A stretch of 64,000 bases of DNA from Diphasiastrum complanatum (taxonomy: Eukaryota > Streptophyta > Lycopodiopsida > Lycopodiales > Lycopodiaceae), in contig MU832231.1 in NCBI GenBank assembly GCA_029204225.1, positions 1-64,000 on the forward strand, read 5' to 3'. Both the position numbers and the translations under genes were made by a program. Positions within the stretch are counted from its first letter, which is position 1, and every line of letters starts with the position of its first letter. Below the pieces are notes generated by a model, which saw only the letters and a program-made list of their open reading frames with translations, searched no databases and was not told the DNA's origin. Of this stretch, positions 1 through 51,795 are shown piece after piece.

Positions 1-879
1 TTAGGCATTTCCCATTCAAATTCCTGTTCCAATTATTCTATGAGCTTCATGGTTGGATGTAGCCATATACAATGGATATATACATTGGTGTGATTGATCT
101 AATTAGTCTTGTCTAGGTATATGACAAAGCTTGTGAGGTCTATGATGAGATTACTTTTGATAGATTACAACTACTCATGTCATGAACTATGTTGCATGGG
201 AGTTGTTATTTTGTCTTGAACAACAAAGAGTACAATGAGTTGAAATTAGTTAAATTTACTTTACTCAAACAATTCAAGCAGAGTCATTCAATGGAGAACC
301 CATTATCTTGTACAAGATTGCATCGAATGTTGGAGAATATTCTAGAAATGGTATTAGACAATGCTATATATCATATCTAGTGTATAATTGAGCTTTCAAA
401 GGGCCTAAGAATATAATCATAATAAAATCCAAACCAACAATCACACACATCGTGATCACACAAGAATTTAGAAGGACAAGAACTTGGACCAATTCTAAAG
501 GAAGTCATGATCAAATCATAACATGCATATATAATTTGATTCAAAATGCAAAATCAAAAGTAAATCCATCCAACCTCAAGCAACCCTCCAATTGAGAGGC
601 TCTATTATCATGATGTGAAAGCATACAATATTCTCTTGTTATTGGAATCACATTGTCATGCAATCAATGTGCCAATGTATTGCTCAATGCCAAAGTTATT
701 GTTATAATATTTGTTTTGCTTCATAGAATTTGGTCATAGTACTTTGATGCAACTGATTACTCTATTATTTTTTTGATGATGATATTATAACATCTACATG
801 TGAATATCCCTGTTGATTTGGCACCTTTTGGGCAGAGAAGAAGAGGCAAAGGAGTTTAAATATCTGCTGAAGATCGTTC
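1..879. other. Intergenic, no gene recognised
   Basis: AT-rich sequence with only short chance reading frames. No repeat ends, RNA gene or conserved protein motif could be recognised. It lies upstream of the transposase-like copy A and may contain that element's 5' end, but no terminal inverted repeat was identified. Confidence 0.5.
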
Positions 880-2640
880 TCGTTACAGGGCAGAAGGAAA
901 GAAAAACGTGGATTTGTGGACAGATGGAACATTATATCCACAAGATCCAAGCACTTTGACACATCCCACATTCTCTTCCAATAACTCATTTAGTTACATG
1001 GATATGCAATGGGCATAGGTGGATTACTAGGATATTGTGAAAGATTGCAAAACCATGGAAAACAACTTTATATGAATTAAAGTTCACTTTTTAGAAGGTG
1101 AGTTAATTCGGATATCCTCTTATTGTCAGAATAGAGATTGTCATCTCCAAAGACGTTAGAAGAAAATGAACAACTTAAAAAATAATGAATCAATTACAAG
1201 AAGATAGCAATCAATATCAAATCAAAACTAGAGCAAATGCAATCAGTCTTACAGTCTATTCGTATTGAAAACTTACAATTACTGAAGGATGTGGATTTGG
1301 TAAAGAAGAAGGCTGAAAGTAAGAAGCGAAAGCGACAAAGTTGCAAGGATATTCAAACGCTTTCAAAAGGAGTTATCGAAATAGAAGGATCCGTGCATTC
1401 AAGTAAGCATATTCTAAATTTTGTAAGTTTTTCAATGACATTTGGATTTAATTTTAGCTATGGTGATATGTTGTTAACTATCTATTTTTTTTGCAGATCT
1501 GCATTAGTAGCTCCTCGGAATATTAAAGACAATGCTTCACTAGGAATGTCATTGGGCACAATATTGACTTGCAAATTCACTGAGCGTATCATGATGAACA
1601 ATAGGATTTCAAATGTAAAGTGTAAAATAGCAGAGTTTTTGATGGTGGACATTCAAACATTTTAGATAAGACTATAGTTTCAGGGTGCTTGTGATTTTGC
1701 AGGTATAAGTAGGGAAGCATATGCAATAATATTTAAACTAATTAGAGAAGCTTTTAAGCAATTTCAAATTAGAAAAGTCCCAATCCCTAGGACATACCAC
1801 TTGAAGAAAGAGAGGGATACATTAAAACATAGGTATGCGTAAGATCACTGGAACTCCATTTCATATTGAGGAGGTATATGAAACTGATGGAAGATCGATA
1901 TTCTATAATTCATCAAAACAATTTATTTGTTGATCTAAATTACTTGCTGAGATACATCGTCACATTCTATGATATAACCTATGAAAAGGTGAATGACAAA
2001 ATAATCATAGTACTTAAGTTAAATGAGTCAAAAATTGTGAAAGGGTAGAAGATGGAAAGGGTTAGTATAACTCTCATGAATGGTGCTCTATCCCAAACAG
2101 AGAACCAAGAAGATTTCAAATTCAGTGTAATATATGGTGGTTGGCAGCGTTTCAGGTAACTAGCCTCATTATCACATTACATTCATTGAATAGTATTAAT
2201 ACATTGTAAACTAAGTATGATTAATTCTTTGGACAGGTGCTGAAAGAGGATCATGATGTATTATCATGGATATTCTCAAGGACATCTTATCCTAGGATCA
2301 TCAAGGACCATATGGATGGAGGATTTCTCAATGTTCCAGGAATTGGAGACTTCATGTTGAATGACACTTAGCAGGTGATTTGAAAACATTGAAATATATG
2401 TATAATGTCTCTCACGGTGCTACATCAAAACACCCTTGTTCGTACTGCATGAAAATGGCAAAAGATGTAACTAGGAGTACAAGAATTACTAGAGAATATG
2501 TAGATCCAAACTGGAAGTCTGTGCTGCCTATCCCCTTAAAAAATGTGCATGTTTGCACTCTTCATGCAGAAGTTAGATTAATAGAAAAGATCATTTATCT
2601 TCAAAATCTGTGTATACACTCTTTCATTCAATAAATGAAA
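880..2640 (+). pseudogene. Transposase-like gene, copy A (decayed, 3' truncated)
   Basis: This is a broken gene of an unclassified family seen three times in the window (also 34414-35070 minus and 50379-51749 plus). The N-terminal part near 905-1075 reads LWTDGTLYPQDPSTL and, after a frame change, GLLGYCERLQ. These match LWVDGSIYPND and GLLGYCQRL of the copy at 34.4-35.1 kb. A Lys/Arg-rich coiled-coil-like stretch follows (1237-1400). The core begins with GGWQRFQ, is interrupted by an 81-bp GT-AG intron (2156-2236), and resumes with VLKEDHDVLSWIFSR, then GDLKTLKYMYNVSHGATSKHPCSYCM and CTLHAEVRLIEKI. The GDLK aspartate, the CxxC pair and the LHAE motif resemble the core of DDE-type cut-and-paste transposases; that is inference. 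Homology stops near 2632, whereas copy C continues much further, so the 3' end is missing. Several stops and frameshifts make it non-functional. Confidence 0.55.
2156..2236 (+). other. Intron conserved between copies A and C
   Basis: The donor is TTTCAG|GTAACT and the acceptor TTGGACAG|GTGCTG. The same position, right after the codons for GGWQRFQ, is interrupted by a 95-bp GT-AG intron in copy C (50496-50590). The shared intron shows that both copies descend from a spliced, DNA-level gene rather than from retrocopies. Confidence 0.6.
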
Positions 2641-2778
2641 GCCCAAGTTGGGCATCTGTACATTTATTTTGTGCTCCCAAATTCATAAACTGGAGCAGCA
2701 TTTGATATATCAATGTATATTTTTCTATGAAGTCTATACATGTATTTTTGTTCTATGCTATCTATATTTTTTCTGATC

Positions 2779-3620
2779 TTAATTTAGTACAACTACATAA
2801 TCCTTTGCACCATCATCAATAACGGGAGGTTGAAGCTTTGCCCGAGCCAGTATACTGAGGATAATTTCTTGTATAAATCTGTACACCTGGCTTGATGTGT
2901 ACTCAGAAAGTGTAAACTGCAAAATAGAACATTCATGTATTAGTAATGGCCAATAACATCACCAGAATAGAAAACTATTTATGATTCCAAAATAAGAATA
3001 AACAGAATTTATCCTTAGAAATATCAACATCTTGTTGAAGGATGAACCACTCAAAAAACAGCTTGGCATTGTACAATGTGTACCACCCACAACTGAATGA
3101 ATCATTTTGCTGGGGTGACTGCAAAATAATTCAACACACAAGAAATCAATTATGAAACAGAATGAATTAGATTGAAAATATTTCATTAGAATACTGATTT
3201 CAAAATGCTATTAAGTCCACAGAATGAGGAACGTCTGTAGGAATATATTTACTTAGATATGGAATGAATATATCTACATCCTTATGCATATTTCTCCCCA
3301 AATTCATCTTGACACAAGAACATTTAATAATATTATTTATAGATCTCTTGATAGAGATCAGGTTTAAACTCTAGTGATCACTGCAAAATAGGATTGAAAG
3401 TACTCTAGCGGCAATTCTGAGAACTATTTAAATTGAAAATGTCAATGTTAATGCATAAAACAAGAAGAAGCACTTAATATATCTTACTTGGTATGATAAG
3501 GAATGATCAGATACTTTGTTGCTGGTGTGAATCCACTTGTCAGACACTGTGACAATGTGTCATTATTCTCCTTGAAGGCCTGGAGCAGAAAGTTACTCAG
3601 CACCAGCAACTCGTTTGATG
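2779..3620 (-). pseudogene. Ulp1-like (C48) SUMO protease domain, inactivated
   Basis: Four exon-like pieces are readable on the minus strand. Piece 1 (about 3620-3488) ends FTPATKYLIIPYHT at donor AA|GTAAGAT. Piece 2 (3380-3221) starts after TTTTGCAG and reads N-D-H-stop-SLNLI across the junction, then DVDIFIPYLSKYIPTDVPHS. Piece 3 (starting 3118 after TATTTTGCAG) reads SPQQNDSFSCGWYTLYNAKL. Piece 4 (2916-2779) starts after TTTTGCAG and ends in a stop. The series His-Trp, then Gln, then Cys-Gly is the Ulp1/SENP catalytic signature: HW, Q(Q)N, SCG. Here the Trp codon is TAG instead of TGG. An in-frame TGA lies further upstream near 3621, and the catalytic Asp cannot be found with certainty. 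Ulp1 domains are known in plant DNA transposons (Mutator-like KI elements, some CACTA) as well as in host genes. Confidence 0.6.
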
Positions 3621-3719
3621 AATCTCAAATTGCAAGAGTGTCAGCCCGAACTCTATCACAGGATCACATGATAGAAGCCCGTCTGTCTTTGAGATCCGAG
3701 CAATTAGAACTCTAAAATT

Positions 3720-4082
3720 AATACTAAAATCAAGTTCTTCTAGTCTAAAACAAAAAAGAATACTAATTGTATCTATAGCATCTGATATGTCTTTCTCAAA
3801 TTTAAGATAATCATTCGAATCTATATATATATAGAAATTGGGAGGAGGAGGAGGAGGTGAAAGTGTAGTATCTACAACAATATTAGGAGTATCCAAAACA
3901 GAGGTAGCTATATTTACAGCATTATCAACAGCAGCATTATCTGCAATGGATTCTGGGATAGGCTTCACTTTCTTAGGAGCACGCTTGGGGGCTGTCTGCT
4001 TCCTAGGACGCTTCGTAGGAAGATGAGTCCTATCTACAGGAGTTGGTCTAGGAGCAGCAGGCTGAGATACATGTAACCTACA
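3720..4082 (-). pseudogene. Basic and proline-rich linker after the histone fold
   Basis: The reading frame directly continues the alpha3 helix of the histone fold. It contains QPAAPRPTPVDRTHLPTKRP then KQTAPKRAPKKVK, an NLS-like Lys/Arg/Pro/Ala tail, then an acidic Ala/Val stretch and a run of seven prolines (about 3836-3856). CENH3 and H3 normally end immediately after alpha3, so this extension is the sequence evidence that the histone fold was part of a larger protein. The frame stays open down to 3597, where it overlaps the start of the protease region. Confidence 0.45.
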
Positions 4083-4356
4083 GTACCTATCCCTCATTCT
4101 GATCAGAAGCTGGAAATCCTTGGGCATTATGGTAACCCTCTTAGTATGGATGACAAGCAAAAGAGAATCCTAAAAAAAAAAGGCTAATATAATCTTCAAC
4201 AGCCTCCTGAAGACATTGAAGAGCACTTGGTGTGAATCTAACGTGCTGTCCAAGATCATTTCTTGTTATGTTCCGGACAGCACGGTAGAATGGAACTCTT
4301 AGGATCAACAGAGCTGTTGACCTCTGATACTTGCGTATCTCAGAGAGCCACCTGCT
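4083..4356 (-). pseudogene. CENH3-like histone H3 fold (frameshifted)
   Basis: The alphaN-alpha1 part reads SRWLSEIRKYQRSTALLI then VPFYRAVRNIT, matching canonical H3 'ALREIRKYQKSTELLI' and 'LPFQRLVREIA'. Loop 1 and alpha2 read NDLGQHVRFTPSAL then QEAVEDYI. After a run of ten T (4171-4180) the frame shifts and alpha3 reads VIHTKRVTIMPKDFQLL, matching H3 'AIHAKRVTIMPKDIQLA'. Three features point to the centromeric variant rather than canonical H3: a loop 1 one residue longer, the F(T)P residues after loop 1 with EDY in alpha2, and KDF instead of KDI in alpha3. The N-terminal tail is replaced by a Ser/Pro/Arg-rich stretch. Unlike any normal H3, the protein continues past alpha3 for about 100 residues. 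The poly-T frameshift breaks the fold, so this copy is a pseudogene. Confidence 0.7.
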
Positions 4357-4555
4357 GCGGTTGCGCGTTCTAGGTCTAGCAGGGGGTGTGATGGCAACTG
4401 CAGGAGATGAGGATGAGCCAGGAGAGAAGAAGTCTCTCCTTGTCTGCTTTATCCTATTTGAAACTATTGTTCTCCCACAATGGTAATTGTTGTAGGTAGA
4501 TATTTGCAGCACGTTATCACCTCCTGTCTTTTTCGCATCTGTGACATGGCAAATA

Positions 4556-5122
4556 TTAGTGAATGTGCAATTGTAAATGATGACATTTTCTATTATTGAG
4601 TCTTCCGTTGATGATAAATCTGAAATATGGCTCTTCCACCTCAACCATAGTCAAATATTCCTCATTGTAGATAATGCTTATCTCCATTCGGTTTGTGTGA
4701 CCATTTAGTTCAAAGTCTTGATCCAGTGGTAGCCATGTACCTTCAATTTTCTTGTATCTCTGATAGCTAAATGTGAGACTGAGCATTTGCTTTTCGATAT
4801 GATAACGAAAGATCATTGAGGACTTTTTAATCCTGCATTCTATGTCATTATTTGTTTTACTATCCCAGCCTTGATCTATGAGATCTGACAAAGTCTCATC
4901 TGATAAATCCTTGCAAACAAATAAAGTTGGTGTCCTACGAACACTAGCACTCGAGAAAAAATCAACAAATGTATGCAATGAGATAAACCAACTTAGGTGA
5001 ACAATTTTCGAGCCTGTGCTTATCTTCATAGCATTTTTAATATCAATGAGTAGCTTGCATCTCAAGGATTCAGAAACAATGCTGTCAGGAGTAGGCCACT
5101 CATCACTTTGAAAACTAGGCAA
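4556..5122 (-). pseudogene. Middle segment of composite gene, unknown function
   Basis: An open frame of 188 residues that I do not recognise. Readable landmarks are MPSFQSDEWPTPDSI near the start, VRRTPTLFVCKDLSDETLSDLI in the middle, and GTWLPLDQDFELNGHTNR towards the end. It is acidic to neutral with no membrane segment. Its length, lack of internal stops and regular mixed composition support a former coding exon. It lies between the N-terminal segment and the histone-fold segment on the same strand. The frame then passes, with a shift or short intron near 4556-4644, into the ORF that holds the histone fold. Confidence 0.4.
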
Positions 5123-5374
5123 TGGAATTGCTTCGAGCTTGCCAAAACCTCCATCTGTCTGTGGCGTATATAAAGATTCATAAAAATAGATACCACAATC
5201 TGCAAGTTTCTTTGGACTTCTTCCTTTGTATTGTAGCTTTCCAACATCAATCTAATATTCCTGCAAGTGATTGTGCGGGCTCCCATTCACTTATGCATGA
5301 TGGATATAAATCTGAAAGAAAAAAACAATGTTGAAGCATTTGAATCATCATCTGAAGAGCATCAATAAAGAAAA

Positions 5375-5737
5375 TCACCTATGATTATTGTAGAGTGCAT
5401 ATGTTTTGATATACTTACAATTACATTTTTGATGATCATGAGGATTGATATCATGTACTTTGATTTCTGAATGCATATATATATGCACTAAGACTTCTGA
5501 TATCGATTGACCTCCTGGGGTAGTCTTGAACTCCAAAATTTTTGCTTTCCAATAAGATTTGTAAGTCATTTTTGCTCTTTTCTTTTGTCGAAAATTGCCC
5601 TTTGATGATGGATGCAGCAATACCCATGAGTTGTTCGTATATTTTGTTGGCTTCCAGTTATCAACTTCATCTTTCTCATTGTAAAGAATCACAGAATCGA
5701 TTGTAGATCTGGGTCTCCTCGCCATTGCTATTTTCAA
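5375..5737 (-). pseudogene. N-terminal segment of composite gene, possible BAH-like domain
   Basis: An open frame of about 120 residues, with ATGs at 5737 and 5725. It begins with a basic patch (MARRPRS), then YNEKDEVDNW, NNSWVLLHPSS, a Lys/Arg-rich loop and YWKAKILEFKT followed by EVLVHIYMHSEI. A loading segment of the form 'WVLLHP', then 'KAKILEF', then 'VLVHIY' is what a BAH chromatin-reader fold often looks like, but no diagnostic residue is certain and I would not name it on this alone. A Cys-rich tail (KCNCKY) follows. The ORF ends in a probable intron. An acceptor-like TTTCTTTCAG lies at about 5310-5319, followed by DLYPSCISEWEPAQSLAG, which leads into the next segment. Confidence 0.35.
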
Positions 5738-6194
5738 AGCTTGGGCGCCAAATTTTTTTTTGATATGTTACTTGATTTTTTTTTCGTATCACATTTAATC
5801 TAATGTGAATGCCAACATAGTCACGGTTACTGCGTATACCATATTTTATGTAACTGTACATACTATATTTCTATAACCGTAACTAGTATAGTTAGAAAAT
5901 TTTACTATACTAACCAACATAGTAAAGTAAATTTAACTTGAGATATTGACGTCGGGCAGATTAGCACGTGTCGGGCAGGAAAAAGAAACCAATGGGATAC
6001 GTCCATGCTGCCTGGACACAAATTTCAAAGTTTTCTATATTGTATTTTTATTTTTTAGTTAATTTGAACTACGTTACGTAGATTTCAAATCTGTGCATTT
6101 TGATTGGGCCTGGTGACAGTCGAAACTAAAGAAAAAAAATAAAAGTATCTTTACAAAGGGTCTTTTTGATATTGAGAACTCCTCTAATGATTTG
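5738..6194. other. 5' flank of the composite gene, with short palindrome
   Basis: Non-coding and AT-rich. It contains an inverted repeat, AGTATAGT (5885-5892) and ACTATACT (5904-5911), and two copies of CGGGCAG-type words (CGTCGGGCAGA near 5951, TGTCGGGCAGG near 5970). A similar CGTCGGGCAAGG occurs upstream of transposase-like copy B near 35350, which could mark a shared element end. No convincing TATA box was chosen. Confidence 0.3.
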
Positions 6195-6420
6195 CTTGTT
6201 TTTCATGATATTTTACCAGAAATTGATAGTAAGAGCTAAAATCCAACAAGATCAGATCATGTTGATGGCTATAATCCTATAAATTGAGTTGCATGTGTGT
6301 CATAAAGGGTTGCATGCCATGAATATCAACTTAATGTAGAAGAAAAAACTGGAAAATTGTCAAAAATCATCATTTTTGCAAGTTTTTTTTTTTTTTTTTC
6401 ATATAGTTGGATAGTAGGTT
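6195..6420 (+). repeat. Dispersed repeat, related in inverse to 47430-47640
   Basis: Shares blocks with the reverse complement of 47430-47640: TTG-TTGTTTTT, GTAAGAGCTA, a CAA-ATC block, TGTAGA-GAAAAAAC and CATTTTTGCAAGTTTTT, in the same order and spacing. It lies upstream of the chromovirus gag and may be part of that element's LTR or leader. Alternatively it is an unrelated repeat family. Confidence 0.4.
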
Positions 6421-7691
6421 GTTGTAAAATGCCTTGTAGAGCTTACTAAAAGCTTAATCAAAGTCTTTTGAAGCTGTCCTTGAAGTTAGAGCCAAGATTT
6501 CGGTGAATTGATGATGTAGAAGGCCAAAAAAAGCCAAAAAAATAGCCTTCTTTTTTGGTAATTTTTGGGGATGGATTGCTATCAATCCACAAGGGGATCA
6601 TGCTGGGAGTTGTTATTGCCTATGTTGTGCTCCTCTTGACCTGTCCAACAAGCTATCAGACATGTAATTTGATGGGGGCTTATGCTCAGAATCCATAAGT
6701 TTGTAGCAAAACGCCCTTTTACAAATCAAGAAATCTTTGTTCTCAGCCCATACTACTTCTTAGGAGCTGTATGAAAGCTTCACGGAAGTCTAATAGATTG
6801 TTTAAGACTGTTGGTAATGTTACTTTTGGATTTGGGGAGGTGTTTGCATGTTTTTGGACAATATGGTCTAGAAAAAGTGCGCCCTACTGCAGAATTTTAG
6901 ACGCTTTGTTTTTGCACGTGTGAAGCTGAGGTGGCAGGATGAGGTATCAATCATCTCGATCACTTGGTCTACCTTTGTACTGTGCTTTACAGCTAATTTG
7001 GTGCACTGTAGCTCAAGATATGGCCGCTTAAAATTTTGGTAGTTTTGTGAACAAAATTGTCAAAATTCGTCAATGTTCTAATTGCATGCCCGCTTTTCCC
7101 CTAATTTGATGTACTGTGCTTGAATGGATTTGTTGCATGCTGAATCTGATGATGTTTTTGACATGCATGAAGGATTTACATTCGTTTTGAGTGGTCATAC
7201 GCATGTGCTCTGACGGTGGGGTGACAAATCAGTGATTTTGGTTGACAATTTCCGTAAAACTAAAATTTAAGTAAAAAATTCTGTAATTGACAAAAAAATA
7301 GTTAATGTTGTGTGCTTTGCATGCCGGACTGACATTATATTGGTAAGATTAGGAATCGAACTAAATGTCGATTTTTCGATTTCGATTGCCCATAAACTAA
7401 TAGTACTTTTTGTTGAATTTAAAGTTACGCAAAAAAAAAAAATTTAAAAATTCAAAATTTTCGGGTTTTGAATTGTCTACAAAATGAACTAAGGTTAGTG
7501 AATTGACCATATTGGAGTCAGTTTCAGTTGGAATTGGTCAACTGTACTTCACTTAAAATTAAGAATAGACGTATTCATTAAGTACTAAAGTTAGTTATTT
7601 CTTGGATTAGATAATTCAAAATAGTTGAAGATGCTGCAAATCATGCTGTGCAAATCATGTTCTACCGTCGTACATGCAAATTTGCTAGCAA
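6421..7691. other. Non-coding AT-rich stretch before chromovirus gag
   Basis: No open frame, RNA gene or recognisable repeat end. By position it should include the 5' LTR and leader of the chromovirus whose gag starts downstream, but nothing here matches the 3' LTR start TGTTCATCCATC at 18411. The 5' LTR is therefore either too diverged or lost. Confidence 0.4.
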
Positions 7692-9574: not shown

Positions 9575-10317
9575 CTACCTAAGTTTACCATGTATTTTGA
9601 TCCATTTAAGTGAAAACTTTTCATCAATCTTGAGCTAGAAATTGTCAAGATCCATTTTCCTAGCTATCTTGTCTAATTTTGGATCAAAAGAGATCAATAG
9701 GGCATTGATTGGGTATGACCTGGTACTGTACGGAATCAGGTGCCCAGACACGTGTGAGGAACATCCAATTTTAGATTGAGAGCTCTCTCTCATTCTTGAT
9801 CCATTTATCTTGCTTGATAGCTTGTTTTGAAGCTATTTTTGTCTAGTTTCTGATGCAATCAGTTTCATTCCATTTGGTTGAGCCAATCAGAAGTTATAAG
9901 CTTTTGAAGAGGGTTAGGTAGGGCACCTAGACCTGGGTGGACACATTTGGTTTGGTCAAGAGATTGCTTGTTAGATCTCTGTTCACAGTCGTATGGTTAC
10001 CAATCTCATCTATAATGATCTAGACATTGTTTTGAGATCATAGCCAATTTGTTTCATGCAATAACATTGAGTTTGAGTCAAATTTGGTTACTTAGTGTAT
10101 TTCACACGTGCTAAGAGTAAATGATCCTAACTTTGTCTATAGTCCATCATTTGATGTGAAATAGATCTTGTTTTAGAGAGACTTGAGTAGCTAGTGAGAA
10201 TCAATTCACAAGGAGTTCCAAGATCTTTCATAGGAGGAGATAGTATTTCATTATTGGATCCTATTGAGAGTGTGTAGCAACATTTATTGTTCATCATTTG
10301 AGTTTTCTTCACTTCAA
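9575..10317 (+). other. Copia leader, non-coding
   Basis: Untranslated leader between the primer binding site and the gag ATG at 10318. No conserved frame is seen in it. Confidence 0.6.
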
Positions 10318-12011
10318 ATGGCTTCAATGAGTTCATCTTTGTTGGAACCAAGTGAAAGATTGTCCACTTCAAACTATTCAATCTGGAAGATGAGGATGGA
10401 GTCCATCTTGATCCTTCAAGACGTGATGGACATAGTTCTTGGCCTTGAAGAAGAACCACAAGTTCTTCAAGAGGTTCAAAAATACAAAAAGAGAGCTAGG
10501 ATGGCTCTCCACTACATTAAGATGAATGTCTCTAATGAGATATTGAGGGAGATAGGTACTTGTACAATAGCAAAGAAGCTTGGGATTGTCTCAAGACTAT
10601 CTATGAGGCTAATAACACCTCTAGGCTCCTCACTCTTAGAAATCAAATCTTTCAAAGTAGCCAAAAGAGTGATGAGAGTGCATCTAGTTATGTTTTGAGA
10701 GTAAAAGATATTCATAGAGAGCTTGCTTGCATTGGTGATTCCATCAATCAAAATGAGCTAGTCCAAGTCATTCTCAATGGCTTGAGAAGTGAATTTGATA
10801 ACCTTGTCCAATCCTATGCCATTAAGGAGGAGCTACCAAGTTTGGAGGCTCTCCAAAGTGTGCTAATTTATGAAAAATCAAGACAATAGTACAAGCTCTT
10901 GAGGATGGACAAGCTTTCTCTCACTCATAATGATGGCAAAGCCCTCTTCGCCAAGGACAAGCACAAAGGGAGGAGCAAGAACCACTTTCAACAATTCTCA
11001 AGCAAGGACAAAGCCAAATCCAAAGGCAAAGATGAGGAGGAAGATGATTCCTCTAATGCTTCATCATCCAAGCTCAAGAAGAAGAAGATCAAGTGTTTTT
11101 ATTGTGGCAAGAAAGGCCATTATGCCACCAATTGCTTCAAGAAGAAGAATCAACTCAAGCAAGCCAACATCACCAATGAGAAGGAAGACACTATTGCAAG
11201 TGATGGAGAGGGATCTCTTATGGTCTCTAGCTTCTCATCCACTCCTTTCAAGAAGGACGGCTTATGGTATATTGATAGTGGAGCCTCTTCACATATGTGT
11301 AGCTCCAAGGATTCTTTCTCTTCTATTGCACCTTATGATGGAGTCAAGAAATCAATATACACTGCAAATGATTTTGAATGTCCTATTGAAGGCATAGGGA
11401 ACATTCCCTTAAAGCTTGCATCCTCTAAAGTTCTTTCTCTTTCTAAAGTGCTTTATGTGCCTAAGATTACAAAGAATTTCATTAGTGTTGGCCAATTGCT
11501 TGATAATGGCCTTGATGTAAAATTCAATGTTGATACTTGTACTATCAAGAAGAGTGATGAAATACTTGCATTAGGATCTAGATTTGGAGGCATCTCTAAA
11601 CTAGATCCAAATGAATATGTGAATTCTTGTAATGTTGCTCTTGTGAACAAGCTCTCTATGGAGAAATTATGGCATAGGAGGTTGGGATATCCCAACTACA
11701 AATCTAGGCTCTCATATGTTGAAAAAGGCAAACAAGTGGATCTTGATTCCACTAATTATGTTTTTTATGTCTCTTGTGAAGAGCCAAAGAATGTACAAGA
11801 GGCACTCAATACCAAGGAGTGGTATGATGCCATGAAGCAAGAGTATGATGCATTGATCACCAAGAATACTTGGGAGCTTGTGGATCCTCCATCCAACAAG
11901 CGTGTGATTGGTTGCAAATGGGTATTTTGGATCAAGTACAATCATGATGGCACCATAAACAAGTATAAAGCAAGATTATGTGCCAAAGGATTGCCATTGC
12001 AAAGATGGTGA
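10318..12011 (+). pseudogene. Copia gag-protease, fused to RT entry by integrase deletion
   Basis: Starts MASMSSSLLEPSERL with the copia gag opening (LSTSNYSIWKMRMESIL). A frameshift near 10558 leads into the UBN2-type capsid (YNSKEAWDCLKTIYE). A stop at 10887-10889 follows. The frame then resumes with the CCHC zinc knuckle CFYCGKKGHYATNC (about 11094-11135), the protease motif WYIDSGASSHMC (about 11265-11300) and the gag-pre-integrase LWHRRLGYP (about 11668). Instead of the integrase core the frame goes straight to EEPKNVQEALNTKEWYDAM and WVFWIKYNHDGTINKYKARL, which normally precede reverse transcriptase, roughly 400-500 residues later. The frame stays open across the deletion point, so the deletion is in frame. 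It ends by frameshift at 12011. Confidence 0.85.
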
Positions 12012-12019
12012 CAATAAGA

Positions 12020-13282
12020 ATTCTTATTTCTCTTGCTTGTTTCTTTAAGTGGAAGGTGTTCCAATAAGATGTATCCAATGCTTTTCTAAATGATTATCTT
12101 GAGGAGGAGATCTATATGGAACAACCTCAAGGATTCATCAAGGATGAGTTCAAAGTGTGCTTGCTCTTCAAAAGTCTTTATGGACTCAAGCAAGCACCAA
12201 GATCATGGTATTCAAGACTTAATTCTTTCCTTATCTCACTAGGATTTACTCTTAGTGACTATGATCCTTCCATGTATCTAAAGTTTGTTGATAGTAATAT
12301 TGTCATTCTTCTAATTTATGTTGATGACATTATTCTTTGTGAAAGTTGTATCAAGCTAGTTGATGAAACTAAGCTAGCACTTGGGTGTGAGTTTAAAATG
12401 CAAGATCTAGGAGAAATACATTACATCCTAGGCCTAGAGATTGATTTTTATGAAGATCATGTTTTTATATGCCAATCTACATATGCTCACTCTATGTTGA
12501 AAAAATTCCATATGGAAAATTCTAAGAGCATAGATACTCCAATGGAGCAAATTGTAAAAGATCCTAATAAAGGTGATGAAAGATCCTTCGAGGACATCAC
12601 ACTTTTTAGGAGTTTTGTAGGCTCCTTGATTTGGCTTACCATTATTAGGCCCGATTTAAGTTTTGGTGTGCACAAATTGAGTCAATCAATGCAAGATCCT
12701 AAGATTCATCATTGGAAGATGGCCAAGAGGATTCTAAGATATGTATCTTCATCTTGTGATTATGGTCTACTTTATAAAAGTGAAGATCTATCCATTGTTA
12801 GCTACTCGGATTTGGATTTTGCAAGTGACAAGATGGATCGAAAGTCTATTAGCGCATACACTATCTTTCTTGGAGGCAATCTAATATCTTGGCTTTCCAA
12901 AAAGCAAGATACTACATCTCTCTCTCCATGTGAGGCCGAGTACAAAGCACTCACTACAACCACCAAAGAGGTGCTTTGGATCAAGAGATTATTATTGGAG
13001 CTAAAGTGCATCAAGGAATATGATCTACCAATGATCAAGTGTGATAATATCTCGGCCCAAGCTCTTGCCAATAATCCCATATTTCATGCAAGAAGCAAGC
13101 ATATAGAAGTGGCACACCATTTTGTGAGAGAAAAACTTATTGGAGGAGAAATCTATTTGGAGCATGTCAACTCGTCCTCTTGTATTGCCGATCTACTCAC
13201 CAAGCCTTTGAGAAAAAGTGCTTTCATCAAGCATAGATCTAATCTTGGAGTTACATCAAGATCAATGCTCAAATCTTCATAG
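12020..13282 (+). pseudogene. Copia reverse transcriptase and RNase H
   Basis: An open frame from 12116 (upstream part, 12020-12115, has one stop: SLACFFKWKVFQ-stop-DVSNAFLND). Copia RT motifs follow in order: EEEIYMEQPQGF, SLYGLKQAPRSWY and the catalytic YVDDIIL (about 12320), then the LGLEI region. RNase H follows with SYSDLDFASD, SPCEAEYKAL and the C-terminal HFVREKLIGGEIYLEH then IADLLTKPL, ending 18 bp before the 3' LTR. The catalytic residues visible in RT and RNase H are intact in this stretch. The first half of the polyprotein is out of frame with it. Confidence 0.9.
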
Positions 13283-34413: not shown

Positions 34414-35070
34414 TTATATGACAACATACTTGAATGCTCGAATTCTTTTTTTCTGATTGCCGCTATGTGTAGATAAGTCATCAATATTCTTCATCGGTAC
34501 TCTCTTTCTTTTTCTCTTCATCATTGTCTTATTGATAATTTTTATATCAACAGCAGATTTTAAACTCTCGGATCGCAACTTTTCCATGGATTCTAACATT
34601 TCTTGGTTTGATCCCCAAAGAGTAGTGACAGTAGCATTCAACTCTGACAGAGCATTTTTGAGTGCATTGTTTTTAGCATTAGTGTGTTGCACATAATGAA
34701 GCAATTGTTGATTTGCACGTTGCAATTGTTGATTAGCAAACTGTAATTGTTGATTAAGACAAGATATGCTATGCATTCCAATATCACGCAACCTTTGACA
34801 ATATCCAAGTAATCCGCTATTTCCTTCACATACATATCTAAGAAGATGAGTTACGGACTTAAAATCTGGACACAAATGGGTAGCTGTATCATTAGGATAA
34901 ATTGATCCATCCACCCACAAACCTATATTCATATGATTATTCATTCTCAATTCTCTAACTATTCTAGCAGCATTCTCTACAACTTTCGCATTTTTCTTAA
35001 TAATTGGAGTGTATTTCATCTGAAGAGCAACATGCAAATGGAACATTGCCATTGTTAAAGCTACAATCAT
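34414..35070 (-). pseudogene. Transposase-like gene, copy B (N-terminal exon only)
   Basis: An open frame of up to 218 residues. Landmarks are MNIGLWVDGSIYPND, HLLRYVCEGNSGLLGYCQRL, a Gln/Asn/Leu coiled coil (NQQLQFANQQLQRANQQLL), and a basic end KRKRKRVPMKNIDDLSTHS. It aligns with copy A (880-1400) at LW-DG-(L/I)YP-D, GLLGYC-RL and KRKR...KDI..LS. It ends at a probable splice donor (AAG|GTATGT at 34421-34429). No downstream exon with the GDLK core lies to its left, where the gypsy LTR begins, so the rest was lost. This copy is the least damaged version of the N-terminal region. Confidence 0.55.
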
Positions 35071-37166: not shown

Positions 37167-37374
37167 GTCTCAAACAATCTAATACAGTTCAAGTCGACTA
37201 CCTGAAAGTTATGGCAACATAGCAACAGGTTACTTCATTCTGGGAGACACGGTGACAGTCGTTCTGGAGTAAGCTCTTCTAGCTAATAGCATTGTATTTT
37301 AGCATTTCTCAAATTGTTGATGAAACGACAGCTCATTCCATCCTTGAAGCTACGAAGCAGAAGCAGTAATAGAG

Positions 37375-40300
37375 ATGGGCTGTGCAAACACGAAAATCGA
37401 CAACGAAGAGAATGTGGCGAGGTGCAGAAATCGCAAGCGCTTCATGAAGCAGGCTGTTGCATCAAGGCACGCTTTAGCTGCTGCCCACATTGCCTACATA
37501 TACTCTCTCAAAAACATAGGAGCAGCATTTCGGCAGTTTGCAGATTCAGACGTTAAAGGGTGCAGATCGCCTATCCCATCTCTGCTCAAAACGTCCTCCG
37601 AGCCTCTCCCACCTCCAACACCGTTGTTTCTCCGCTATCCCTCCCCCCCTGCTACTCCCATTCACCGCTCAGTCAGTCTCCCAGCTCTCAGGCTTCAGAA
37701 TGGAGCCCCGTCTCCTGATAAGAGCAAGCTGCTCTCTCCCCCAGCTAGTCTTCCAGAAGAGGACGACGACGAAGAGCATAAGGACTATCTCTATGGAGAT
37801 GCTCAGCCTCCACCGCCGCCCACACTTGCTGCTGCTGCAGCTCCTCCTCCTCCTCCAGCTCCCAGATCCTTCACCTGGGATTTCACAGACTTCTTCCGCC
37901 CAGCAGAGCCGTCCTTGCACCTTCAGGAAATGAGGAAGAGCAAGCAGATGCAGGAAGCAATGGAAGAGCAGAATGGAACCGCTGACTATAGCCCTGCACC
38001 ATATCCAGAGCATGGAGAGCACAATGACATATATGGGGATGACCAGACTGAGAATGATAGATACATGCACTCCGAGAATGATAGATATATACAGACTGAG
38101 AATGATAAATATATGATGTCGGAGGGGAGCAGCCCTGACAATGTGATTGTGAAAAGCGAAGTGGTGAATGAGCTAGTGTGCCTGGACAGGAGGGAGATGG
38201 CCCTTGTGCCATCTTTGAGAACAGGGACAGAGCTGGTGGATGTGCTGAAGGTGGTGGATGACTGGTTCCTCAAGGCTCATGAGAGTGGCAAGGATGTTGG
38301 GCGATTGCTGGAGGCTCTCAGAATTCAATATCACTCCAACTTTATCAAACCAAAAGGTCTACCTTGAATCGCTGTCAGATATAATAGCAATCTAAACTAT
38401 ATAGTCCTGTTTCCTGCTGCAAAGACATGCATTTTTTGCTTTCTATGTCTCTGGTCAGTTTGATTTGACCCTTGCAATCTCTGATCTTTTAACTTTTCGC
38501 CTCTGTCGAAATGCGAAAGGTGAATATACTACATTGTTTTGAGAGTTCTATTCTGGACGAAGACCTAGATCACTCGGAATCTGTGCAATTATGTCTCTTC
38601 TCTTTAACTTTGTGATGGGATCAGAAAGTTTTCAACTTTCATGGTAACAACCTGGCTTTGACTGTGTACAAACGTATAAAAATATAGATTACGCTAAGTG
38701 ATGAAAATCAAAGAGCAACTTGCATACTTTGGAAAGTAAGGTGTTTATCATAACAGACCTAAAAACTTGTTGTATATTTGAAACTCTGCATCAAAGAAGG
38801 AAAATATGGTAGCCATCCATGACAATACATTGAATGGTTTTTGAGGGCCTTAAGAGCGGGGCCCACCTACATTTAGTATGAGGTTAATTAGTCACCGGAT
38901 AGCCTAATAGCTAAGGCAGATGGTGGACTCACCTGCAATTAGCGGATTTCATTCAGCTAAATTAAAGTGCTAGTGAGTTTAGTAACCTGCTCTGAATTTT
39001 TGAGGACGGAACGTACTATTACAGTAAAAAGAAATTCAAACATGTTATACTAAAAAGAAAAACCAGAAACCATCAGAATTTTAAGCCACATGATGATGGT
39101 AGTCTTGCAAACTTTCTTATCAGACTATGAATTTTCTGAAAATTCATTAGTTCAACAGTGAGAAAATTGCAGAATGTAATGTTGGACTGTTCCCTTGTCA
39201 ATTTGCACTTTCAGAAACCTTCTGACACAAAACTTCCAGCCATGATGCAAGGATGAATAAGCGATTGACAGCACCAAAACACCTTTGGAAGTCAGCTGTT
39301 GAGATCAATGAATGTTTTTGCAAAATAACTTACTAGAAAGTCAGAATAGAAAAAGACACCTTCTGACACACAATTGGCGAACAATTTTATAGAAAGTCAG
39401 AATAAAAAATAATTAACATACTTTTTTCAATACATACTGAAAGAAATTTTTTCTTTTGCTCGTTCCGGCAACACATTAGCTCACAGATTTATGGAGACCT
39501 CCTGAGGTCTTTAGCTAATGGGTTGAGCATGGGCATCTTGCCAGGTCAAGCAAAAGAGTGTGCCATTGATTAACTTGTTTTCTTGTTTCAGAAACCTTTA
39601 ACCATGCCTCTTAACAAAAAACTTATGGGGCCTGTTAGTGCACCTGGACCCAGTAGGTACAGTAATGGGTGTGCTCTGATTTTAAATGGGGCCTGAATCT
39701 CAGTTAAAACTCTTCCGAGTTTTATTAATGGTGCACTAACTATTGGCTGCACTAATGTGGATGGGGCCCCTATAAGTGTCCATTCAAAGTAGCATCAAAG
39801 AAAATCTCAGATGCTGTATTCCTTCCAACTGTTGTTTAGCTTAATGATTATCTAGATACCCTTTAACCCTATCTATACATGAGGGCAATGCAATAACACT
39901 TCACAGAACCTAGTCAAGGTATGATACAAATGAGTTTGATGAATGAGATTTTGGCATGCACCAAGGGGAAAAGGCAAGTCAGAATCCCACGTTGCTAGAA
40001 GTTTGATGGACAAAGAATTGGAGAATGATAGGTTAATTGTCAGCTTTTTCCGATGCATCAGGATTTTTATATCCTTAAATGCGTGGAGGATGGAATCTGG
40101 ATGGTAAGGCTCCAAGCTTATACAGTGAAAAGGCTGTCATGCATGATGCAACAAGCAAAAAAATTTGTAAATATTGTTCGTCAGATTTATTAAATTGCTT
40201 GGAAGTTGACATACAAGCGAAACAAAAAAGCTTCAAAATTCAGAAATTAAACTTGTGCTATCCATTTTAAAATATTCAGAGGTAGCAGTTCTATGATTTG

Positions 40301-43300: not shown

Positions 43301-45283
43301 GGCTGGGAGCCATGCATCAACACTTGATCGACTCTTTGCATGGGAGAAGAGGCTCTATGAGGAAGTCAAGGTACTCTTCAATTTAGATTCAGATTCTCAG
43401 AGAGCTTTTCCCTTTACTAAATGTAAACTTGTCATTTTATACAAATTGGGTGGTAACGCAACTGAAATGCTGCTAAATTAGAGCTGGTTAGAGTTGCTTA
43501 TTTGAGCAAATCACAACAGTCTTCATGTTATCCATATTTACCAGAAACAATGATGAGATTTTTATGACTTTATCTCAAGTTTTGAGGCTTATCTGTTGAT
43601 GTACTGGGGATTTACAGCACACACTTTAGCCAAGTCCCATCAGTGTCATTAGCTTTCCAAATGGTGGGATGCCTTGTATACCTTCATCATGTATTTGAAG
43701 TTTTGAACATGTTCGTAGGAAAGATTGATATTTGTTTCTCATGCATACCTTCAGTACCGTACCAGCTGCTCGCTTAAGTCATAGACTTCTTTCCAGTTGT
43801 GCTTCATAGAAGCAGAATGTTATTGCAGTCAATGGAGTTGTAAGTATTTCCAGCATGGTATCTCAGCTTTGTCCCAACATTTGATTGCTCATAGTCAATA
43901 CTGATTAACCGTGACCAGTTTACTTGGAATCAATTTTTTTCAGGGAGCTGAAACAATTCGGACTGAATATGAAAAACAATGTGCTTTATTAAGAAGGAAA
44001 AATACAAGGGGGGCAGGAAATGAGTCGATTGACAAGACACGGGCAGCCATTAATTCATTACGCACAAGAATAGTGATAGCTCTCCAGGCTGTTGATACGG
44101 TTACTACAGCAGTACACAAGCTGAGAGATGAAGAGCTCTATCCACAACTGCTTGAAATACTACAAGGGTATATTTCTAAAAGATTCATGTGTCCATGTAA
44201 AATAAAAACTTGGAAGGTGTTGATCTTTTCATTTGCAACCGTTGAACTGATGCATCACTTCAAGACTTAATGCATCAGGCACTCATGGGTTCATTTGTGA
44301 AACTTATTGTATGAATCGTAAAGTCAACAGCCATTTTATTCATTCTTAAGTCAATTCTGCACATCTACTGGGTGTGAATGTATATTGATTTTGGCATTGC
44401 TAGAGTAAGTGCTTTGGGAATGGATTTGGTTAGCAACTGCTTGCAAGAGAAAGTGAGTCTGATAATTGTTCTATGCAGATTGACTTTTATGTGGAATGAG
44501 ATGTATGATTGTCATCAAAGACAGAGAGAAATTGTGAAGGATATGAAGGCCCTTGAAGTGCTAGAAAGTGCAGATGCAACAAGTAATCTTCGTAGACAAG
44601 CAACCTCCCAGCTTGAATTGTCACTTACAAACTGGTATAATTCCCTTAACAAAGTAATCAATACGCAAAGGGAATACCTGCATAATGTCAATTCATGGCT
44701 GCGACTCAGTCTACAACCTGTCGAAACTGAACCTCGAGACAGATTGTCTTCACCTGTCAGGAATGATCCTCCTCCAATCTACTATCTTTGTATAGAGTGG
44801 CAACAAGCACTTGATAGACTACCAGACAAGGTAGCCTTGGAGGCTATCAAAAGCTTTTCAGCTGTGGTAAGGGTCATGGTCGATTTGCAGTCAGATGAGG
44901 TTCGACACAGGAAGAAAGTGGAAGTTCTTTCTAGAGAACTGCATAGGAGAGTAGTTGCATTACAGAACTATGAGAGGAAGCATGCAGATGAGGTTCCTTT
45001 CCGGTATGAACGTAATGAACTAATTACTGCAATAGTACCATACAAAACCCCACACAGTGCAAAACAGGCTGCAATCGATGTTCTTAAGAGAAAACTTGAC
45101 GAGGAAAATGAGAAAGTGAAGAAGGCCATTCAAGCTAGCAGAGCAATGACAATAAATAGTTTCCAAACAGGTTTACCAAGTATCTTTCAGGCGGTGACGG
45201 GTTTTGCTCAAGTATGTTGCCAAACTTACCAGGGGTTGTACAGTCAGATCAACAGTAATCAGTTTTCCAGAATTAACAGATAA
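37375..45283 (+). CDS. DUF630/DUF632 protein (NRG2/APSR1-like), four exons
   Basis: Four exons: 37375-38356, 43183-43370, 43944-44167 and 44479-45283, total 2199 nt, giving 732 residues with consistent splice phases. The start MGCANTKIDNEENVARC opens the DUF630 domain (residues 1-59), whose Gly2/Cys3 suits N-myristoylation and palmitoylation, so plasma-membrane attachment is expected. A Pro/Ser-rich region follows (about 76-180), then an acidic region holding three tandem 8-residue repeats (ENDRYMHS type). DUF632 starts near residue 265 (VSLRTGTELVDVLK-like) and continues through exon 4 with WEKRLYEEVK, EYEKQCALLRRKN, ELYPQLLEILQG and MYDCHQRQREIVKDM, mostly coiled coil. The family includes Arabidopsis NRG2 (nitrate signalling) and APSR1 (root response to low phosphate); which paralogue this is cannot be decided. 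Intron 1 is 4.8 kb, with donor AAAAG|GTCTAC, a weak match to consensus. Confidence 0.9.
38050..38121 (+). repeat. In-frame 24-bp coding minisatellite, three copies
   Basis: Each unit starts GAGAATGATA and encodes ENDRYMHS, ENDRYIQT and ENDKYMMS. It lies in the acidic linker between DUF630 and DUF632. Length is a multiple of three, so copy-number change keeps the frame. Confidence 0.75.
39621..39777. mobile_element. Foldback, MITE-like element
   Basis: The left end ACTTATGGGGCCTGTTAGTGCACC is complementary to the right side GGTGCACTAAC (39730-39740) plus GGGGCCCCTATAAGT (39763-39777). The termini ACTTATGGGGCC/GGCCCCTATAAGT form imperfect inverted repeats about 157 bp apart. Small size, intronic position and no coding capacity fit a MITE, but no target duplication is certain. 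Confidence 0.4.
42340..42437. repeat. 49-bp tandem duplication
   Basis: TACACTTGAGGAGGGCCCAC followed by AGGGCAG(T/C)AACT(G/A)TAGCACA occurs starting at 42345 and again at 42394. Confidence 0.7.
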
Positions 45284-48334: not shown

Positions 48335-50378
48335 TACTTCACAGCTCAACTACTATTATAGACTAGTTAATGTTTTTCGGCGTAGGTACAAATTTGTCTC
48401 ACTCTGATTGGTGGATAAATATAGGCTGTGTTTCTGAATTTGTTACTTGACAAATGTATGGTTGTGATCAACAAGGTTTGGCTATAAATATGGGCACCAC
48501 TTGCCATATTTCAATTTTGTGATCTTTTATTCTGAACTCCCGGGTCTTTTTGTTTTCTTTCTATCTCACGATATCAAATCGACGCGCGTCTTTCCAAACC
48601 ATTGCATGATCGGATTCATTCAGGCACGCTGAATCGATATCACCCACTTCTGACGTGTTCTCGCGGAAAATTTCAATCTCGTCCTAGCGATATTGGATCA
48701 ACGCGCGCACTCTTGTTCAGTCCTCCACCGATATCATTCTGTCGCGTCGAACCGATATCAGGTTCAATATGGCAAGTTACTCAAATGAAGGAATCGAGCC
48801 GCCAAACTACATTAAGGAGCGTCGACAAGTAACTGAGAAGGAGTTCCAGAATCCAGATTTACCGAGAACGCCAATATCAGAAGGTCGACAAGTCACGGAC
48901 CGGCTAATGAACAAAGACAAAGCCTAGCGCCTCCCCAACACATCTTACCGCCGCTGCCCTTCCTGATACCCTTTGCCTTGCTTATAATGAGCACTGCAGC
49001 CTCTACTATAATTGCCACCAGTACCACGCCGCCACCTTTGATTTCCCATTCATTGAATCCACCTCCATGGACTAAAAGAAACTCTAGCTCACCTTTCCCC
49101 ATTTTGACCTCCAAACTGGAGGAGACCGCACTTTCAACCAGGATTTCCAGAGTACGTCACTCAGGCTAAAACCACCACCTCCACCCTCCAACGTATCCCA
49201 ACATGCCCGAGCTAGAAATTGCCTCTCCAACTCCCCTCATGCTGCTTCTCCACCTCGCACCACCTCAACTCATGCCGCCTCGCCGCCTCCTACCACTTCC
49301 TCACCTCCAAAAACCGACTCTCTATCCACCTTCACAGTTCCCCCTTGCGCTGATGACACTTGTGGTGGACCTGCTGTACACCAGCATTGGTACTAGAAAA
49401 AGTCTAACAAAAGGCATTCATGGACTCACTTTGATTTTCTTGTTTTTCACTGTTCTTTTCATTTTCTCTTTTATTTTTCTCTACGTATTTCTACATACAT
49501 ATTCTCTGTTTCCCCCCTCCTCTATCGCTAATTTGTTGCCAAAAAAAATTTCCTCACTTTTTTGCCAATTTTCATCTCCCTATCTTTCCCACACCCCCTT
49601 CACTTTCATTCTTTATCGCCTCACGGTTTCAGATCACCATGTCTGCCAACGTTGAAGACAAATATAGGTGCCAAGGGACTGTCACCAAATTCGTTGTGGG
49701 ATCATGTTAAAATATTCTAGCGAAGATTCTTCTAACCGATTCCATCCATCACAAGCACATAAAGGATATCAAAAAGCGGAGTCGAGCCACCAAACTACAA
49801 AGGAGAGCATCAATGTAGTGGGTTTCTTTCCTTGCCTAACCTCAATCCAAGATCTAATCAATCTAGCATCAAAGAGATGAAGTTAGTTGTCACACATAGA
49901 TTCATTCCCATGAGAGCGATACTATAGTTCAGATTTTAGCATGAATGGAAGATTCACATCTAACTCTAACATCCATTAACCCTAAGCATTAACACTACAT
50001 CCATTAACACTAGATCCACAACAAGATAGCTTACTCTATCTCTCTCTCCCTTTCTCCCTCATAAAAAGTATAATAACATGCAATCCCAATAACAATCAGA
50101 TCCAACAATTAGCCAAATCCAAATAAAGCATGAGAGATGGAGGAAAAGTGATAGAGAGCAAGGACATTCATCAATCCATTTTACAAGAGAACCAATATGC
50201 GTTATTGAATTGAAGAAATGAACATGTGTAGGAATTCGAGTTGGTCCCTTCTTATAGTAGAGAGGAGGACCCTGGCCTCTGAATCCTATTAGTCCATTTT
50301 TGCCTCCCTAATTATTCAAATTTTAAAAAGAGTGGGATGATCATTATTGTAATAAAATTGGATGAATATGAAATCATC
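47641..50378. other. Intergenic, with microsatellite and Pro-rich chance frames
   Basis: Includes a (CA)n tract at 48299-48332 and a TATAAATA word at about 48484. A locally CG-rich patch at about 48570-48900 has several GATATC/CGCGCG words and a 52-codon frame MASYSNEGIEPPNY. The Pro/Leu/Ser-rich frames at 48978-49655 are on low-complexity C-rich DNA and carry no motif. The part from about 50330 begins to align with copy A upstream of its conserved intron. Confidence 0.4.
48299..48332. repeat. (CA)n microsatellite
   Basis: About 17 uninterrupted CA units. Confidence 0.9.
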
Positions 50379-51749: not shown

Positions 51750-51795
51750 AAGGCATATGCTTGTAATATATCAAAAATCTATCACAGAAAATTAT

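Follow-up and report, generated by a model that had tools for sequence, protein, structure and literature searches.

A DNA transposon of Diphasiastrum complanatum that carries its own histone H3 gene, fused in one clade to a Ulp1-like domain

In a stretch of 64,000 nucleotides from Diphasiastrum complanatum (contig MU832231.1; hereafter the window), which lies at the start of contig C713 in the 1.74 Gb assembly, we found a broken copy of a large DNA transposon that ends in terminal inverted repeats (TIRs) and encodes its own variant of histone H3. In the clade to which this copy belongs, the H3 fold is followed in the same gene by a basic linker and a Ulp1-like domain. Sister copies were sought in the same genome. 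We give about an even chance to the explanation that the H3 variant of this transposon acts against silencing. The first-pass annotation had described a CENH3-like fold joined to a Ulp1-type protease for the small ubiquitin-like modifier (SUMO) in one minus-strand gene at 2779-5737, and had proposed a chromatin-directed protein combining centromeric nucleosome binding with deSUMOylation. Its observation was confirmed, and its interpretation was partly supported.

The histone family PF00125 matched two open reading frames (ORFs) on the minus strand of the window, 4141-4650 at 3.8e-16 and 3597-4169, which holds alpha-3, at 2.3e-4; read through together they scored 90.5 bits. The frame is unbroken from alpha-3 into the linker, and the order and strand of H3, linker and Ulp1 part were as claimed. 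The exon at 2975-3130 (minus strand) gave a match to Peptidase_C48 (PF02902) whose E-value, 4.1e-4, coincides with the curated cut-off, and the Ulp1 part read through gave 19.5 bits alone and 17.9 bits in the long frame, both below the cut-off of 20.7. The active-site motif Q-N..CG reported in the first pass is present, whereas in the window copy a stop takes the place of W in the H-W motif. A C48 call from this copy alone is weak; it was settled because of relatives elsewhere in the genome.

An uninterrupted version of the gene was found at locus L017. Exon A, 331 codons comprising H3, linker and Ulp1 start, and exons B, C and D contain no stops, and splicing at GT..AG borders yielded a protein of 473 amino acids (aa) that matched Histone at 9.3e-28 and Peptidase_C48 at 1.1e-10 (42.1 bits; cut-off 20.7). 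The spliced domain scored 44.2 bits with PF02902 against the same cut-off, and the Ulp1-like domain matched the Ulp1-like structure 6dg4 of the Protein Data Bank (PDB) at 3.2e-4. The L017 tail, which is histone-tail-like, begins MDRRKQTRRDFF... three codons past an in-frame stop. The fusion is therefore predicted to be a single protein with the histone tail as its N-terminus, and on these sequence grounds we consider the H3-linker-Ulp1 fusion real. An intact homologue carrying both domains thus exists.

In a PF00125 search of the genome, 150 of 6325 first-look candidates were scored, and 153 matches were reported. Thirteen were at the level of canonical H3 and the remainder at or below 110 bits; because PF00125 also covers H2A, H2B and H4, not all of the latter need be transposon H3. 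Twenty loci picked from the matches for long open frames were fetched, and all 20 carried transposon-type H3. Seven of them (L015, L016, L017, L021, L022, L023 and L026) form clade 1, the clade of the window copy. In all seven, H3 and linker are followed in the same orientation by the first Ulp1 part or more, L022 lacking the later Ulp1 exons, and the splice pattern is common to the clade-1 copies. Twelve loci form a second clade, and L027 represents a third type. With exon A of L017 as query, scoring was limited to the 121 best of 9965 first-look candidates, and each of these 121 copies covered at least 314 of the 331 residues at 84-100% identity. These copies were present on every contig from C1 to C24 and on smaller contigs, and exon A was free of stops in 24.

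A protein-database search with the 820-aa read-through frame of the window, a query that wrongly joined gene B (see below) to H3, gave no match among 5901 candidates at E 0.001. The 377-aa H3-linker piece matched 18 of 3207 candidates, all with histone Pfam labels and none with a C48 label. Three of these database H3 relatives (P0015, P0016 and P0017) are long-tailed divergent H3 proteins of 477-578 aa, which could be element-borne or of CENH3 type.

The sister copies have a sharp right end in common. Three of them were extended (E17, E23 and E16), and full lengths of 8681 bp for E17 and 9305 bp for E23 were obtained. The inverted ends, CATTAGAGGAGTTCTCAATATC..., are perfect over 35 bp in E17 and about 84% identical over 43 bp in E23; no matching left end was seen in E16 at the point where its similarity stops, and only the left end of a fifth element was found. 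With 150-bp end queries, 1422 unscored candidates were obtained for the right end and 1618 for the left. Forty were scored per end, and they were 97-100% (right) and 99-100% (left) identical. Near-identical ends and the many candidates point to a young, high-copy family. With shared inverted-repeat termini and dispersed copies, the element is a TIR DNA transposon, which bears out the mobile-element origin proposed in the first pass: an element of 8.7-9.3 kb with inverted ends and four genes, arranged in clade 1 as T (+), D (-), H3-Ulp1 (+) and B (-). No target site duplication (TSD) was present in any of the four elements with both ends read (E17, E23 and two more); some DNA-transposon superfamilies produce none. 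The ends read CATTAG...CTAATG, and for two of the four elements the empty site would be AGT|TGA. An 18-bp perfect inverted repeat at 248/5921 of the window was dropped as a candidate for the element ends: the true right end lies about 250 bp beyond its right copy, and E17, E23 and E16 each have the motif once instead of twice.

Comparison with E23 and E17 revealed how the window copy was rearranged. It consists of gene T as far as position 2364 of the element (window 710-2603), the inverted H3-Ulp1 gene (2603-4457), and B with the right end (4455-6189); the outermost 460 bp on the left were not recognised. The alignment to L017 is interrupted at L017 position 2489. Owing to the inversion, the stretch 4456-5737 is gene B brought into line with H3-Ulp1. 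The single gene of the first pass accordingly stands for H3-Ulp1, which begins at about 4457, and falls for 5725-4456, which is gene B. A single long B-H3-Ulp1 gene was also rejected. B is a separate gene, and six of the seven sister copies fetched have it and H3 on opposite strands; in the seventh, L015, no B was matched. The inversion also took away the start codon of H3-Ulp1. Further defects are frame breaks in the T run between alpha-2 and alpha-3 and in the Ulp1 part, one nonsense codon and one exon without its end. With gene T truncated, D lost and the H3-Ulp1 cassette inverted, the window copy is a pseudogene in a dead transposon copy. Several copies show inverted cassettes: in L014 and L024 of clade 2 the T half is affected (unless a second element is joined there), in the window H3-Ulp1, and between the clades D plus H3.

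The protein database contains 22 relatives of gene T, among them P0039, which is about 90-94% identical to stretches of T here. T has the conserved motifs KLDE, AGDLK and CTLHA..RI.EK. It gave no Pfam or PDB match and is called a putative transposase because of its place in the element and its conserved acidic motifs. Among 16 T relatives, no Pfam match to a Mutator-like element (MULE) transposase was obtained at E 0.1, and VANDAL/MULE membership was rejected. Membership in hAT was likewise rejected, given no hAT Pfam match among the 16 relatives and no 8-bp TSD in the four two-ended elements. Gene B gave no Pfam match above cut-off and has no known domain, and an AlphaFold model of its middle part, made without an alignment, reached a pLDDT (predicted local distance difference test) of only 31.

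The second clade has the same genes around H3. In its 12 copies, whose fetched stretches differ in extent, B was matched in 11 and T in 7, and gene D was present in E20, the sole clade-2 copy extended for the D test. The end sequence, CATTAGGGCCC..., has CATTAG in common with clade 1. In E20, B and H3 lie on one strand, and the H3 tail starts just past an in-frame stop, about 0.7 kb beyond the B match. Between the clades, identity is 31-35% for D, about 30-38% for B and 43-49% for the H3 fold, which is 47-54% identical to host H3. Since H3 is common to two deep clades along with T, D and B, it is an old component of the element. The clade-2 H3 frame has a long tail with SR repeats and polyproline and stops directly after alpha-3 (RRERN) in 11 of 12 copies, L019 continuing for a few residues. 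No Ulp1 piece was matched in any of the 12 loci. Histone and protease are hence one gene in the window's clade, whereas the H3 of clade 2 stands alone; the fusion was observed in clade 1 and in the second copy at L027. At that locus (2323-3318 and 5529-6617) the H3 of the third type, MARTESTARA..., is extended by a C-terminal stretch of its own; next to it lies an incomplete T-H3-linker-Ulp1 copy that may be a nested insertion.

An H3-type N-terminal tail was found in both clades. The host H3 tail reads MARTKQTARKS, with lysine at position 9. All 12 clade-2 tails read MARTKQTAR with zero to two changed letters, followed at position 9 by D in 10 and by G in two. In clade 1, six of seven tails read M-D-[R/K]-R-K-Q-T-R-R-D, and L016, broken upstream, shows only TRRG; the start is MDRRKQTRRDFF or MDKRKQTRRDFF in six sister copies, closely preceded by a stop in the same frame. 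The L027 tail, MARTESTARA, has A at position 9 and Glu at position 4. Thus, lysine 9 is found in none of the 20 tails, which have D, G or A instead. Lysine 4 is present in 18 of 20 (12 of clade 2, six of clade 1), unreadable in L016 and replaced by Glu in L027.

Selection was evaluated as the pooled Nei-Gojobori ratio of nonsynonymous to synonymous substitution rates (dN/dS), for which no significance was computed; comparisons between clades were set aside as dS was saturated. In clade 1 (7 copies, 21 pairs), dN/dS was 0.38 for the tail, 0.19 for the H3 fold, 0.59 for the linker and 0.62 for the Ulp1 start. In clade 2 (12 copies, 66 pairs), the H3 fold gave 0.41 and the preceding stretch 0.65. 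The Ulp1 exons gave 0.42 for B (26 copies), 0.13 for C (24) and 0.40 for D (22). At the level of coding sequence, these values show purifying selection on the H3 fold and on the exon with the Ulp1 active site. Because live and dead copies are pooled, selection during element activity was probably stronger.

The later Ulp1 exons were read in 26 copies: the window, six of the earlier loci and 19 copies picked for a stop-free exon A. His was kept in 24 of 26 and Trp in 20 of 26; Gln was found in all 24 readable copies and Cys in 20 of 24, Tyr replacing it in four. In nine of the 26 copies (two of the nine look identical), the H-, C- and C-terminal segments are unbroken and His, Trp, Gln and Cys are all retained. 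The catalytic Asp of yeast Ulp1 (1euv) aligns, with no gap, to the residue 17 positions past His. This residue is Lys in 25 copies and a stop in the remaining one; Asp was seen in none of the 26. The His-Asp-Cys triad plus Gln of Peptidase C48 is hence incomplete at the Asp position. It is therefore doubtful that the domain is a normal deSUMOylase, and the activity proposed in the first pass was not upheld. A SUMO-binding domain or an unusual dyad would fit the conserved Q-N..CG exon better.

Taken up into a mechanism, the element-encoded H3 would enter nucleosomes on or near newly inserted copies. Such nucleosomes could not bear the H3 lysine-9 (H3K9) silencing mark, and the element H3 would thereby be an anti-silencing factor. 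The Ulp1-like domain would bind SUMO, or cleave it by way of an unusual active site, and may recruit or protect the protein at SUMO-rich silenced chromatin. That the protein is chromatin-directed, as the first-pass annotation had it, is probable. Somewhat short of an even chance, in our estimate, the family could represent an unrecognised plant DNA-transposon lineage with an H3 core gene whose product keeps lysine 4, the site of an activating mark, in nearly all tails, lacks lysine 9 and would form nucleosomes that cannot be silenced, the Asp-less SUMO-protease fusion of one clade being maybe a SUMO reader. Several points weigh against an anti-silencing H3. Plant CENH3 tails also begin MARTK without the lysine-9 context, so the loss of lysine 9 may have come down from a CENH3-type ancestor and need not reflect selection for escape from silencing. 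In clade 2 the first in-frame Met gives MSEEMARTK..., which makes a free N-terminus uncertain, and the MARTK-type motif of L024 contains a stop. The linker, the Ulp1 start and the clade-2 stretch before H3 are at dN/dS 0.59-0.65, and 97 of the 121 scored exon A copies hold at least one stop. High copy number proves the success of the element and not the mechanism, and the transposase role of T is deduced for a protein lacking Pfam or PDB relatives.

Centromere targeting, in which a CENH3-type element H3 would mark or steer the element to centromeric chromatin, is unlikely. The element has CENH3-like letters (LIPRAPF in alpha-1, AEDY, DSFL and KDF/KDL, against LIRKLPF, AEAY, DTNL and KDI of H3), and loop 1 is one residue longer than in H3 in clade 1. 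The alpha-1/alpha-2 piece of the window matched the centromeric H3 Cnp1 best in the PDB (47.1 bits), canonical H3 coming next at 45.4. With alpha-3 included, however, the best 60 PDB rows were all H3 or histone domain and none was CENP-A or Cnp1. Loop 1 of clade 2 has the length of H3, most copies of that clade match canonical H3 at each of tail residues 1-8, and the scored copies are spread over every contig from C1 to C24, at places that may or may not be centromeric. The transposon clades were 42-53% identical to plant CENH3, against 47-54% to host H3, and in the H3 tree, with host CENH3 neither found nor included, 10 of 15 inner branches stayed open. The centromeric identity proposed in the first pass is thus not settled, and the element H3 may or may not descend from CENH3. 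Apart from the divergent H3 fold and the MARTK-type tail start without lysine-9 context, common to both, the element H3 differs from CENH3/CENP-A in being transposon-borne, of high copy number and Ulp1-fused in one clade, with a loop 1 that is not clearly CENH3-like.

If the histone only docked an active SUMO protease on chromatin to strip SUMO from silencing factors, the retention of His, Gln and Cys and the low dN/dS of exon C would be expected, and a coupling of anti-silencing protein and Ulp1 domain is described for the VANDAL KIU genes (PMC13317346); the Lys or stop at the Asp position and the unfused H3 of clade 2 make this rather improbable. Passive carriage of host H3 and Ulp1 fragments without function seems more improbable still. 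It would resemble the fungal hAT element that captured H3 and was amplified to hundreds of inactive copies (PMC6710886) and would suit the stops in most scored exon copies, but the same four genes recur in two deeply split clades, dN/dS is well under 1 in the H3 fold and Ulp1 core, and the clade-1 splice pattern is shared. We consider it very improbable that the copies are remnants of a DNA virus that integrated many times with protease-fold, histone and other genes. Some DNA viruses do have histones (PMC9145170), T, D and B lack known domains, and TSDs are absent; yet no capsid, polymerase or packaging match was obtained among 10 element ORFs scanned, viral contig scans gave no relative, and a length of 8.7-9.3 kb, precise TIRs and very many copies suit a transposon. 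Hardly any credence is left for an accident of nested or inverted fragments: the window copy is truly rearranged, but the order H3, linker and first Ulp1 part recurs in all seven fetched clade-1 copies and all 121 scored places. Chance juxtaposition was accordingly refuted for H3-Ulp1 and holds only for the B-H3 junction.

An anti-silencing H3 would have its nearest functional parallel, by analogy, in VANC/KIU and its nearest structural ones in fungal hAT-H3 elements and bracovirus H4. VANC/KIU of the VANDAL MULEs (Kaonashi; Arabidopsis and other plants) likewise combines, in a gene of a DNA transposon, a protein that counters silencing and a Ulp1 domain acquired by capture, and it causes hypomethylation of related elements (PMC13317346). 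The accessible text does not term VANC a histone and the transposase is of MULE type, whereas here the partner is an H3 fold and T has no MULE match. Dothideomycete fungi have a DNA transposon, some 9.5 kb long, through which an H3 coding sequence reached hundreds of copies, but this is transduplicated host H3, mostly truncated or inactivated (in one species 23 of 26 copies are apparently coding), with a hAT transposase and an 8-bp TSD, and the accessible text (PMC6710886) mentions no Ulp1. The element described here has a divergent H3 under selection in two clades, no TSD seen and an unclassified T. Bracovirus H4 (CpBV-H4/CvBV-H4) joins host nucleosomes and alters expression via its tail (PMC5423620 and PMC9145170); it is a viral H4 acting on the parasitised host, in contrast to a transposon H3 whose action is proposed.

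Sequence-specific anti-silencing proteins of transposons and captured histones in fungal transposons and viruses are already known. A literature search, which left out most subscription journals, returned neither a fusion of H3 with Ulp1 nor a lineage of transposons whose H3 gene is under selection, in agreement with the first-pass remark that the architecture matches no described family. If the anti-silencing explanation is true, an own H3 without lysine 9, selected in two deep clades, would be a direct counter-defence at the chromatin level. It would then be testable whether a single transposon protein keeps DNA free of H3K9me2 (dimethylated H3K9), and the fusion would be a natural case of a histone joined to a SUMO-protease fold. 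The features of the window copy are listed in Table 1.

Table 1. Parts of the transposon copy in the window
Feature	Positions	Strand	Evidence
H3 histone fold; reading frame interrupted within the T run that separates alpha-2 from alpha-3	4083-4371	-	PF00125 3.8e-16 and 2.3e-4; 82-90% protein identity to seven clade-1 copies
H3-like N-tail remnant (KQTRRDFFSPG...), start codon gone at inversion junction near 4456	4372-4458	-	Sister-copy tails; break in window-L017 alignment
Basic/proline-rich linker, in frame with alpha-3	3756-4082	-	68-93% identity to seven clade-1 copies
N-terminal part of Ulp1-like domain (end of exon A)	3490-3755	-	Within 331-aa exon found in 121/121 scored places
Ulp1-like exon B; His present, Trp = stop, Lys at catalytic-Asp position	3203-3382	-	
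Ulp1-like exon C, Q-N...CG active-site motif	3005-3121	-	PF02902 4.1e-4; dN/dS 0.13 over 24 copies
Exon D and stop codon of H3-Ulp1 gene	2779-2916	-	
Gene B, N-terminal and middle parts, separate gene	4456-5725	-	92-95% DNA identity in six clade-1 copies, orientation relative to H3 opposite there
Gene T (putative transposase), 3' part missing	710-2603	+	95% DNA identity to E23; 22 database relatives; one stretch with 90% identity to P0039
Inverted segment (compared with clade-1 elements); remainder of T and gene D lost	2603-4457	-	Comparison with E17/E23
Right TIR (CATTAGAGGAGTTCTCAATATC...)	6155-6189	-	End common to sister copies; 35-bp perfect TIR in E17

Elsewhere in the window, a second member of the superfamily was recognised at 50310-51728 (plus strand) and 51823-53105 (minus strand), T followed by a convergent D. 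Compared in separate stretches, its T reaches 69% identity to relatives in the database, and clade-1 D is 26-45% identical to the D at 51.8-53.1 kb; H3 queries matched nothing beside this T-D pair at 50310-53105. A third T gene is represented at 34420-34953 (minus strand) by an N-terminal fragment with 31% identity to P0032. ORFs at 10234-13279 (plus strand) resemble a Ty1/copia retrotransposon as judged by eye (zinc knuckle, VLYVP, CKWVFWIKYN), and the exons at 37348-38364 and 44378-45280 (plus strand) belong to a plant gene of the ordinary DUF630/DUF632 kind, with Pfam matches at 6e-27 and 5e-40.

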